A DNA stretch of 64,000 nt. It comes from Echinococcus granulosus (lineage: Eukaryota > Platyhelminthes > Cestoda > Cyclophyllidea > Taeniidae). Below are positions 59,806 to 64,000 of this stretch, one piece after another. Made by a program: the position numbers and the translations under genes. Position 1 is the first letter of the stretch, and each line of letters begins with the position of its first letter. The notes beneath the pieces were generated by a model. That model ran no database searches, had not been told where the DNA came from, and saw only the letters and a list, made by a program, of their open reading frames with translations. The stretch is from contig NW_020170411.1 in assembly GCF_000524195.1 (NCBI RefSeq), positions 673,657-737,656 of the forward strand. Direction: 5' to 3'.

Positions 59806-62800
59806 CTACACGAGGTAGATGTCGTCGTAGTGGTCCTCGTGTCGGTGCTGGTGCTGCTGTGCGGACTGCATCTCGAGATCGGAGACGCCTTCACTGGCCT
59901 CGCTTTCCTGCGGAGGCGGTGGCACCACCGGCGTGAGTGGTGCCGGCGGGTGGAAAGGACTGAACCAGCGCCACGAGAAGGGCCGTCCGAACACGTTTGC
60001 CAACGTCTCCCTCTTTGATATACGCGGCCTCGGCGTCCCTTTATTGCGCTTCAAACTCTCCACAGCCTAACAAGAGGAATGAAGAAGCGGCATAGCTTTG
60101 GTAAATTAAATACGGACTTCCAGTACTCATACAACAAAATAAAGTGGGATGAGGTTGGAGAAGTGAAACCAGGCTGGGTACATAAAGCTGGTATTTGCAG
60201 TGCGGAAAGCAAGTAATCAGGTACGCCAAGAAGGCAAGTGTGCAAGACAACTAAGTGCTAATAGGGATAAAATAAGCTCAAATAAAAGAACCCAGTCATG
60301 TGTGTGTGCTAACTTTTAAATTTTCTGAAACTTATTTATTTAGCAAACTAGCAGTTTTAGCAACCGTGACCCAGACGTAGAATATAAACATGTAAAAACC
60401 CAAAGTGGAGCATGGGCGAACTATGTAAAGGTGTATTAAGCACGAGGATTTTCACAAGTTATTTCCCAAAGTGGTGACAACATAGTGTCATGACTGCCAA
60501 AGTAAATCGATCCTGCGAAGATTACATGTAAGATGCCCTGGAGATTATATTGAAGGGTTAGCAGAGGGCTGCTTGCTATCACAAATGCAAATGCTTCAGG
60601 CATTACGTAACCACCCAAAGTAGGGCATTTTCATAGTCTACTAAACAAAAGCTTAAAAGCACGTGGGCACAAAAAACCAGCAAGTTGCCAGAAAAGTGAT
60701 TTATTAAGCAGGGTGCCAATTAAGACCGCATCACGAACAGTGATGTGACATCCATAAATGCTAAAATAGCAGTTTCTCGGGGAGAATCATGCACAGTTCT
60801 AGAGCTACCTAGAGTTAAAATTAATTTAAGGTGGTTTCGAAGCAGCGGGGACTATGAGCTGGTGAATGTAAAAGCCGATCTATGCAAACAAAATGAAATT
60901 AAAAATGTCAGATACTAAACCCTACAGCTAAGGTTGAGAACTAAACTGCAGTAATTTGTGCGCATTTTAATTGATTCTATCTTGAGCCCTAACTTGAAGT
61001 GTCGACATAAATAGAAGGCTGTAGCGAGCATCGTAAAATAAAGTAACAACTAAATGGCTTAACCTATTGCAGCGGCGTAAAGCTAGTGAATAATTTTATA
61101 ACGGTTATTTAGAGCACGAAACTCCAGTGATAGACAAATGAGGCATAACACAAAGATCTATAAGAAAACATCGCGTAAATATAACTGCAACTAGTCAGCA
61201 CTAACGAATGGTAGAACTAAAGAGCTGAGGTTCAGCATCCAATTAATACAGGAACATAGCAAAGGTACCACAGCGATAAATGAAGTTCATTTTAGGCACA
61301 TAAGAAATCGCCTTAAAGAATTCCACAGGGGGCACCGACACAGGGTATCTAGGGAGGAAAACTCAAAGATGGTCCCATCCAGAGTGAGTTGAAAGTTGGC
61401 GGGAGCCTCAGACAACAGTAGAGAGGGGTGGAGAATGTTTATAAAACCTACAGTTTCGTCTTTGCAGATGGCACAGAGTTGAGTGCCCCCAATTGCGACG
61501 GTGAAGAGACCAAAGAGGACAGCCTCGAATCCCGCGCCGATGGCGAGCATGGTGGAGGGGAGGGAGGTAGAGGAGATATTGGTCGCACCAAACGACGAAA
61601 TTAGGCGGTTCTTACAGGTTGCTGAATACATACATACAAGCACATACATGCACACATACAAGTGCACACACATTCGGGTCTCGTTATACACCACAACTGC
61701 ATACGTACGTAAAGCCCTGCCAGAGCAGTAGTAATGGCGTGCTTGTCGGAGTAAGTGCTACATAACTTAAAATTATCACTACGATAACTCCAACATCTGT
61801 CGAGATGGTTACACACCTGTAATGACGATACTACGAGGTTATTCTTGATGATCATTGAAAGGTGCGGTGGTTCCAATGAGAGTATTCACTGAAGTGACCA
61901 CAAAAGTTGCCTCTAGGGTAAAATTGATAGCAAAACAGACACCTAACACAGTGGAATCTAAAATGTTATTGTATCTTCTCATGTATCCAAAATACGAGAG
62001 AAAAAATCCAAGTCATGTACTAGGGCAATCGCATGTAAAAGTGCACCTGAACTACGCTTTTGCACATTAATAAAGACCCAATAGTATCATTATATTTAGC
62101 TTCGTCTGGCATGACTAGAGCTACTCAACTGCCTAATTCGTAACAGTCGAAAGTAAAACCAACCACCTCACAGGAATGTTAAACAGAGCTGTGCAGCAAC
62201 AGAGAAAGGACAGGCACGCCAATAACAAGGCCTAGAGGTGAGTGCTACCTGCGACACTAATAACGGGTTTGGTACCCAGCCCAGAGCAGAGAGAGGTGAA
62301 AAAAAATGAGGTGGAGGCAAGGCAAAGGAGGGGGGAGGGTGGGGACAGGAAGAATGGCGAAAGGGGATGTGGTGGAGTGTGACTCACGGTTTCGTCCGAA
62401 ATGATTGACGATACTTGAGAGCACGACATGACGCTAGTGAAGAGACCGAAGAAGGTAGCCTCGGAGATGAAGAATATGTTGTTGATAAGAGCTGCTGTGG
62501 CGCTGTAACTGCCTGGATATTCACACTCTACGATAGTTCAAATCACGACGAAGAAGAGAAGAAAAAAAATGAAACTAGGAAAGAAAATCTCAAGGGTTTT
62601 AGCAGCATTTTCGCCATGACTTGTCGCAGGGGATGAAGAATACGATATTCAGGTATCCTGAAAAGCGCCTCAACTCTCCTCTTCTGCCGTGTACAAATTT
62701 CCAAACATCGTTGAAAATCGCTCATTGCCAATCGAACAATAGGAGACGAGTCGAAAATTGAAATGCATTACCTCTTTAAAGACTCAGAAAAATACAGTGA

Positions 62801-64000
62801 CTGAGCAGTGAGCAAAAGGGTAGGGATTATTCAGAGAGAGAGAGATGAAATTCAAATATTCGGGGAAGTGAATATTAGTATTCACCTTGATGAATCAGGA
62901 GGGGACAGTGTGGGTGTCTACTGGGCTGGGTTATTGGTGTTAGTTCTACTAGTGGTAGGAATTAAACAAAACCTATCTGCCAGTGTTAGGAATGCTAAAC
63001 GCACTGATTTTATTATCTTTATGAAGCAAAAGGAAGAAATCAAGCACACTCAAAAGACTGAATAAATAATTACGTAAGCAGTGACGCATGCAAAATAAGA
63101 AATGCACTGCGCAGAAACAAAGTTGATAAATTTGTATGTATTTACATGTGCGAGCCAAGCGACTAAATACATCCAGCAAGAAATTGTAGTAGCGACTTTT
63201 TTGCTTTATCTGAAACTTTTGCTGTGTGCAGCTGTCCCTCCAGATTCGCTTCAACTTAAAAAGTGTGCTCTAAACAGCAAGCTTACCATTTGGCTTTGGG
63301 GTTATTTTAATACATTTGGTGAAATGCATATCTTTCTAGGGCTACAGGCATTACTATCATTAATGCATTCTATGAATAGACGGCGAAAAATCAGCCACTA
63401 CCGCAAGATTTGACGAACTAATTCTTCGGTTCTTACTTTTTGCAAATAAAAACAAAATGCATAAAGACAGAATGTAACTTACTTCCGAATTCGGAGAAAC
63501 AAGAGAAGAAAAAAGAGATGATCAGCGCTAATCCAGCGAGCGATTGTAGAAATATGTATAACTGAAATGATGAAGTGAAAAGACAAAAGCTCGCCATTTT
63601 GCCCTCTCGGAGGACGCCTTTGGCTAGCGTAACCCACATAAGGGATAGTTCATAATCTGAAATTAAGTTTCTCGGGTAGCCATAGGTAATGTTAACACTT
63701 GTAATTCAGTTCTAATTAGGCATTTGTTACTATCAATAGACAATCAGAAGCAGGACTGTGAGTTAATGGGTGATGCTGAACATTTATGGCACTGCAGCTC
63801 TGCGGAACCCGGAGTAAAAGTGGTATACTTGACGACTAAAGTATTATCAATTCCATTAGTGAAATTCAACTAGACCAACTGAGGAGGGTTAATTATAATG
63901 CAATTTTACACGATAGAACGATCGAAGAACTTACATTAAAAAGTACAAAGAATTTTTGGTTTCCCTCACCAACACAGTTATTCACCCAGGGGCAGTGGTG
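59806..64000 (-). CDS. ZDHHC3/7-like: Palmitoyltransferase of the ZDHHC3/7 type, 3' part (cut by window edge)
   Basis: Membrane enzyme that transfers palmitate from acyl-CoA to cysteines of target proteins, usually at the Golgi. Exons seen, 5' to 3': 64000-63935 (continues beyond the window), 63561-63483, then either 62512-62388 or 61621-61452, then 60066-59806. The first starts inside the catalytic motif, [20 protein letters not shown]; the Asp of DHHC would be in the next base triplet outside the window. The second encodes the third membrane segment ([16 protein letters not shown]). The alternative exons encode the fourth segment and a DET motif equivalent to ICNDET in mammalian ZDHHC3/7. 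The last exon has [21 protein letters not shown], a Pro-rich stretch, and the C-terminus DDIYLV, parallel to ZDHHC3 YQYVV. Visible product: 176 aa with exon A or 191 aa with exon B, both in frame. Confidence 0.93.
61452..61621 (-). CDS. ZDHHC alternative exon B (TM4 and DET motif)
   Basis: 170 nt, entered in phase 1 and left in phase 0 at ACT/GTAGGT. It encodes a longer loop followed by [20 protein letters not shown] and KDET, closest to the mammalian ZDHHC3/7 sequence (FGTQ...IC.DET). Its 3' splice site follows UG/UAUG-rich repeats. Joining it after exon A would shift the frame and reach a stop within seven codons, so A and B exclude each other. Confidence 0.85.
61626..61675 (-). promoter_or_regulatory. 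UG/UAUG-rich repeat before exon B 3' splice site
   Basis: On the transcribed strand this reads as a run of TGTG, TATG and GTATG units ending in GTATGTATGTATTCAG, directly abutting the exon B acceptor. UG-rich intronic repeats are known binding sites for CELF/Bruno and TDP-43 type splicing regulators, and the placement suggests control of exon choice. The microsatellite nature is clear; the regulatory role is inference. Confidence 0.45.
62388..62512 (-). CDS. ZDHHC alternative exon A (TM4 and DET motif)
   Basis: 125 nt, entered in phase 1 and left in phase 0 at ACC/GTGAGT, exactly as exon B. It encodes [20 protein letters not shown] then [13 protein letters not shown]. It aligns with exon B over FGLFT, the small-residue stretch and DET, but lacks the GTQ and IC residues and has a shorter loop. 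Its 3' splice site (AATATCCAG) has a purine-interrupted tract, with a stronger T/C run farther upstream. Confidence 0.85.

Follow-up and report, generated by a model that had tools for sequence, protein, structure and literature searches.

Gene organization

The window (the whole 64,000-nucleotide stretch of Echinococcus granulosus DNA that was analyzed), part of an 851,384-base contig, carries on its minus strand a gene for a ZDHHC3/7-type palmitoyltransferase, which extends across the window end. When the window is read together with the next 16 kb, the gene can be assembled through canonical splice sites from exons E1, E2, E3, E4 (encoding TM3), A, B, and T (Table 1). Either A or B can connect E4, which is left in phase 1, with T, which is entered in phase 0, and all of the junctions are GT-AG. 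The A-to-T and B-to-T readings are both open and run to one common stop after ...YDDIYLV. An initial annotation of this DNA had described A and B as tandem duplicated exons of equal phase, and splicing and translation of the assembled gene, together with the similarity of the A and B cores described below, bear this out. Its coordinates for exon B (61621-61452), for the ends of A (62388) and E4 (63483), and for the start of T (60066) are likewise reproduced.

Table 1. Exons and candidate control element of the E. granulosus ZDHHC3/7-type gene, in window positions continued beyond the window end
Feature	Position	Strand	Content	Basis or remark
E1	65561-65031 (from ATG used here)	-		wholly beyond window
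E2	64357-64227	-		wholly beyond window
E3	64031-63935 (in-window part 63935..64000)	-	DHHC motif and end of zinc domain	canonical splice sites, open frame, Pfam DHHC match
E4	63483..63561	-	TM3; constant; 79 nt; phase 1 end	aligns with TM3 of relatives
Exon A	62388..62527	-	140 nt; short luminal loop, TM4 version A, ...SDET	kept in five other tapeworm species
Exon B	61452..61621	-	170 nt; longer luminal loop, TM4 version B, ...KDET	protein identical to P0001
UG-rich tract	61622..61672	-	candidate control element	abuts 5′ side of exon B; (UGUAUG)n type; UGU[UAG]UG sites clustered
Terminal exon T, coding part	59806..60066	-	AVE of T-x-x-E, C-terminal domain, stop	splicing and translation

The 5′ end of exon A most likely lies at 62527 and not, as first annotated, at 62512. 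The earlier start used the acceptor CAG/GCAGTT and gave an exon of 125 nt; an in-frame acceptor, TAG/AGTGTG, lies 15 nt upstream and nearer the pyrimidine tract, gives an exon of 140 nt, and adds the residues K-C-E-Y-P-G. The 62527 start is favored because in five other tapeworm species exon A also encodes the added residues. Indeed, T. solium, M. corti, H. diminuta, R. nana, and A. perfoliata all show [KM]-C-E-Y-[PA]-G-[SG]-Y-S at the A start, and the cysteine in this stretch is near-invariant in alignments A2 and A3. The acceptor at 62513, which yields the 62512 start, could be a minor alternative.

Relationship and Copy Number of Exons A and B

The motif E...F..FT......Q...I..DET has exactly two matches in the six frames of the 64-kb window and none in 20 mononucleotide-shuffled windows. 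Over a 36-residue ungapped core, A and B share 13 identities, with a BLOSUM62 score of 46; shuffled sequences score -26 on average (SD of 12), and none of 100,000 shuffles reached the A-B value. The corresponding region of Haliotis, a mollusc, matches A at 17 and B at 20 of the 36 positions, so that both exons are closer to it than to each other, a pattern expected if A and B are ancient descendants of one exon and both still functional.

No third copy of the exon was found by a strict or a medium motif in the six frames of the window. Queried at the DNA level with exon A or with exon B, the 103.6-Mb genome gave a single match in each case, at the query exon. At the protein level, too, each exon recovered only its own position; as A missed B and vice versa, a remote copy could escape this search. 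The DHHC family in this genome comprises 13 matches, which are this gene and 12 others.

The Encoded Enzyme and the Segment Predicted to Be Exchanged

The assembled proteins match the Pfam DHHC family (PF01529) with 111.2 bits for the B form and 118.2 bits for the A form with the short start, against a cut-off of 28.7, whereas NCBIfam assigned no family to any of three proteins. An intact DHHC motif is encoded in E3 and a DPG motif is present. The TTxE site reads T-A-V-E, where A or B supplies the threonine and T supplies AVE; in human ZDHHC3 the site reads T-G-I-E. The predicted structures of both forms adopt the four-helix DHHC fold, and their best matches are DHHC structures. Among the matches listed, the animal entries with a ZDHHC name are named ZDHHC3, an assignment by database match. 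Collectively, the Pfam and database matches agree with the earlier reading of this gene as encoding a ZDHHC3-type enzyme.

That reading also identified TM4 as the swapped part, which holds as far as the threonine of T-x-x-E. Its further statement that the forms differ next to the active site is overstated, in that constant exons encode the DHHC zinc domain, TM3, and the glutamate of T-x-x-E; the parts that change are the luminal loop, TM4, and the cytosolic end of TM4. Residue 182 of human ZDHHC3, which we take to be the chain-length position of this enzyme, is an isoleucine in P0047 (Homo sapiens ZDHHC3). An isoleucine in TM3 of zDHHC3 is reported to set acyl-chain length (PMC8059564). The predicted swap covers the luminal loop and TM4, and the TM3 chain-length position sits in a constant exon. 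At the position of the human isoleucine, tapeworm and fluke entries almost always have Gln, Met, Leu, or Val, and mollusc and vertebrate rows mostly have Ile.

The luminal loop is about 10 residues longer in B. Nine of the 36 core positions show fixed differences (given as A residue/B residue). Four of these, A/P, L/T, S/F, and F/L, fall within the first two thirds of the core; M/I, S/G, C/G, and V/L belong to the cytosolic part of TM4, with S/K close to its end. TM4 of A is richer in phenylalanine and that of B is small and glycine-rich; in Echinococcus, the first 28 core residues contain five glycines in B and one in A. Nothing here points to a difference in basic activity between the two predicted forms, as the invariant residues are kept in both.

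The Exon Pair in Other Flatworms

A full-length search returned 2,192 matches, in which form B agreed with P0001, Palmitoyltransferase ZDHHC3 [Echinococcus granulosus], at 100% identity across the 422-residue query. Our comparison of relatives uses the best 120 of the 2,192 matches. Searches restricted to the exons found six proteins with exon A among 16 candidates and seven with exon B among 65 candidates. Both exons occur in six tapeworm genera, represented by Echinococcus, T. solium, M. corti, H. diminuta, R. nana, and A. perfoliata, with exon B present only in part in the T. solium entry. Thus, a search of other flatworms for the same exon pair, which had been proposed as a check, supports the pair in the database entries of other tapeworms.

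In M. corti the two forms are separate complete database models with the same flanking sequence, P0005 for A and P0004 for B. H. diminuta also has separate models, P0006 (A) and P0121 (B); the longest contig given is 1,609,773 bases in either case, and therefore they probably belong to one locus. The B model P0121 is N-terminally truncated and begins just upstream of the DHHC motif with apparent intron read-through. Four other tapeworm entries carry A and B fused, namely P0002 (T. solium), P0003 (A. perfoliata), P0024 (R. nana), and P0026 (H. diminuta), and their joins all differ. These entries appear to be wrong fusions of two exclusive exons, which is what gene finders make when two such exons are both open. 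Two complete copies of the motif were found in 4 of the 121 proteins compared (P0003, P0024, P0026, and the monogenean P0009), one copy in 113, and none in 4; animals beyond the best 120 matches may carry two copies as well.

The constraint on the two exons was assessed as protein identity to the Echinococcus copies. For exon A this ranges from 38/47 to 45/47 (five species), for exon B from 45/57 to 48/57 (four species), and for the TM3 exon from 17/26 to 25/26 (five species), corresponding to 79-96% overall for A and B and 65-96% for the adjoining TM3 exon; the last part of T is 34-92% identical. The E, FG, F, T, Q, I, and DET residues do not vary among the copies examined, six of A and five of B, and both exons retain the residues that are invariant across this region in alignments A2 and A3.

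Outside these six genera, the diphyllobothriid entries P0007 and P0008 have a B-like exon only, and the trematode entries retrieved have one copy of the TM4 exon. The monogenean P0009 (Cichlidogyrus) has two copies, the first of which continues into DETVSC; VSC back-translates to GTNAGY, and therefore a splice donor appears to have been read through. In P0028 (Schistosoma bovis) and P0030 (S. curassoni), DET continues into VSY..., reading across the donor where the same exon ends, and an early stop follows; these are probably truncated models, with an alternative end as a possibility.

Probable Use of One Exon per Transcript

WebScipio-type searches for mutually exclusive exons look for adjacent internal exons of at least 15 aa each that differ in length by no more than 20 aa and share flanking phases and splice-site type, with a default minimum homology score of 15%; on the fly X chromosome, only 0.56% of non-mutually exclusive exons show such similar lengths and shared phases (PMC3228551). 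Exons A and B are adjacent and encode 47 and 57 residues, a difference of 30 nt or 10 aa, and share splice phases (phase 1 in, phase 0 out) and splice-site type. The pair also qualifies as homologous, with a global A-B score of 16% of the self-score of A and 13% of that of B under gap costs that are not those of WebScipio; with free end gaps the values are 22% (A) and 18% (B), and 0 of 2,000 shuffles reach this score.

Inclusion of both exons gives ...DET-QPVRTA-stop, with the stop at the seventh codon past DET, as had been claimed (a broken frame and a stop within seven codons). Both candidate starts of A give a length of 2 mod 3, and therefore this frame argument stands. Skipping of both exons (E4 joined to T) gives ...GSCGEFEAQ-stop, again an early stop. 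Taken together, it is very probable from these sequences that A and B are old tandem duplicates of the TM4 exon of a tapeworm ZDHHC3/7-type gene that are spliced in one at a time, and this one gene probably makes two enzyme forms. The two enzymes would have a common catalytic domain and TM3 and would differ in the luminal loop and in TM4 packing. Such a difference would be expected to act on partner or dimer contacts, on membrane placement, or on acyl-CoA preference, rather than to turn the enzyme on or off.

The early stops after double inclusion and after skipping would also suit a switch between productive and unproductive splicing, in which one exon works and the other feeds transcripts that are destroyed, so that the amount of enzyme is tuned and not its type. 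This is quite unlikely, as both exons remain constrained as coding sequence for a full TM4, down to the invariant residues, whereas an exon that acted purely as poison could do without such constraint, and two tapeworms have models of each form (the H. diminuta B model being the truncated P0121). It is less likely still that one of the two is a decaying duplicate, or a prediction with almost no use in transcripts. The E. granulosus database entry is the B form alone (P0001, a three-member cluster at 90% identity, within which the A form may be hidden), and the acceptor pyrimidine tracts of A (0.55) and B (0.60) are weaker than those of E4 (0.80) and T (0.85). However, both exons have been kept in six genera with open frames and splice-site dinucleotides, and in most comparisons they equal or exceed the TM3 exon in conservation. 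On a crude donor matrix A and B have low scores, and so do the constant exons E1 and E2. Joint inclusion of A and B to give a protein with two TM4-like helices, as P0002 (B in part), P0003, P0024, P0026, and the monogenean P0009 would suggest by containing both stretches, is most improbable, for it breaks the frame in this genome, and the differing joins, which read intron sequence in P0003 (intron end into B) and P0009 (DET into VSC), look like gene-finder artefacts.

Candidate Control of Exon Choice

The intron between A and B is 766 nt long and no U12-like donor is present, and therefore neither steric hindrance nor U2-U12 spliceosome incompatibility explains exclusivity. Non-triplet exon length combined with nonsense-mediated decay is named as a mechanism that removes mistakes (PMC6071210). 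The frame shift and nonsense-mediated decay would in this way clear double-inclusion and skipped products of the tapeworm gene; this combination can remove mistakes but selects neither exon. Exclusive splicing by competing RNA structures relies on conserved intronic pairings of docking and selector sequences, through which one exon is chosen (PMC6071210). In the one sequence searched here, four imperfect inverted repeats were present and no candidate docking/selector pairing stood out.

Nine splicing-motif patterns were tried on the interval between E4 and T, and only two of them stood out. UGUAUG occurs five times against 1.0 expected (0/300 shuffles), and UGU[UAG]UG occurs 10 times against 5.0 expected (9/300 shuffles), with seven of the 10 sites within 51 nt upstream of B. 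UGCAUG occurs three times against 1.3 expected, which 39 of 300 shuffles reach, and the GCAUG, Pumilio, MBNL, STAR, PTB, and Nova-type patterns were near expectation in the same interval. A similar UG-rich tract is probably also present in A. perfoliata, because P0003, which reads through the intron end into B (...LYVCMW-IATCEN), resembles the window translated in the same frame. Exclusivity would come from regulated splice-site choice, with the UG-rich acceptor of B as the likeliest control point. Our guess, from known binding preferences, is that the regulator of the UG tract is CELF/Bruno- or Fox-like.

Origin of the Pair

The exon tree was built from 36 columns and 26 rows, with T. solium B left out, as its entry holds only part of the exon. 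The cestode A copies form one group (97/94), and the rest of the tree is uncertain: the cestode B copies come together at 60/30, B groups with the diphyllobothriids (87/93), and Cichlidogyrus copy 2 groups with the trematodes (91/82). Tree tests rejected a clade of B with Cichlidogyrus copy 2 (p-AU 0.003) and one of both Cichlidogyrus copies (p-AU 0.020), while a clade of A with Cichlidogyrus copy 1 was borderline (p-AU 0.048). A single clade of all cestode copies (p-AU 0.224) and a clade of A with the diphyllobothriids (p-AU 0.176) were not rejected.

As judged from these sequences, one old duplication followed by losses and two duplications are both possible histories. That the cestode and monogenean pairs arose by separate duplications, the cestode pair being younger than the ancestor of the parasitic flatworms, has perhaps slightly less than an even chance of being right. 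The rejection of B with copy 2, the borderline result for A with copy 1, and the tolerated single cestode clade speak for it. However, the Cichlidogyrus copies are not sisters, which would make that pair old too, and 36 columns with long branches resolve little and are too few to date the duplication. A more far-reaching scheme, in which the TM4 exon was duplicated in the ancestor of the parasitic flatworms, before the split of monogeneans and cestodes, and a regulator of the UG tract switches between tissue or stage forms of distinct acyl or substrate selectivity, as a natural helix-swap, is rather unlikely, as the exon tree lends no support to one ancestral duplication.

Relation to Known Exon Pairs and DHHC Enzymes

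The FGFR2 exons IIIb and IIIc encode part of a vertebrate receptor ectodomain, are used in a tissue-specific manner, and determine ligand specificity. As proposed for the tapeworm gene, there are two exclusive exons for one part of the protein, and nonsense-mediated decay is held to clear double inclusion (PMC6071210). Tissue use and ligand specificity are known for FGFR2, and the exchange in the ZDHHC enzyme is a predicted one. A flatworm example is exon cluster 8 of the muscle myosin heavy chain gene, which likewise consists of tandem homologous exons of which one is used per transcript; this pair is described as conserved in flatworms, with Echinococcus, Taenia, and Hymenolepis among them, and the authors favor developmental regulation (PMC3912159). 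That cluster belongs to another gene and affects myosin loop-2, whereas the tapeworm ZDHHC pair would swap a membrane helix of an enzyme.

Mutually exclusive exons are thus already known as a kind of event. Surveys of Echinococcus splicing report them as 1% of events (PMC5440512) and as 563 events (PMC8587495), and neither "palmitoyl" nor "DHHC" occurs in the main text of either paper. Among the open PMC papers that our searches listed, none describes a pair of TM4 exons for a DHHC enzyme, and the pair is apparently unreported.

If transcripts confirm the pair, the conserved TM4 swap would show which features of this helix can vary without loss of the DHHC fold. It would also make the effect of TM4 and the luminal loop on acyl or substrate choice testable and would place protein lipidation under splicing control in tapeworms. 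Of practical use, P0002, P0003, P0024, and P0026 appear to be mis-fused gene models, and P0009 likewise looks erroneous.

Splice variation of other DHHC enzymes takes a different form. Exon 10 of C. elegans dhhc-4 is subject to cell-specific alternative splicing, as described in PMC13247117, and is in that account a single non-triplet cassette exon in a disordered C terminus, with no homologous exon pair. Splice-type variation is also seen within the same subfamily in the vertebrate ZDHHC3 C-terminal isoforms (P0047, Homo sapiens, compared with P0110, Xenopus laevis), although there it starts past TM4, after DETGIE, and alters the tail; TM4 is not exchanged in the entries compared. The C-terminal valine of ...YDDIYLV (59806-59820, minus strand) is near-invariant in the aligned ZDHHC3 proteins (V443 in alignment A2), while the tail that precedes it is poorly conserved. 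This valine may, we presume, be part of a PDZ-type binding motif.
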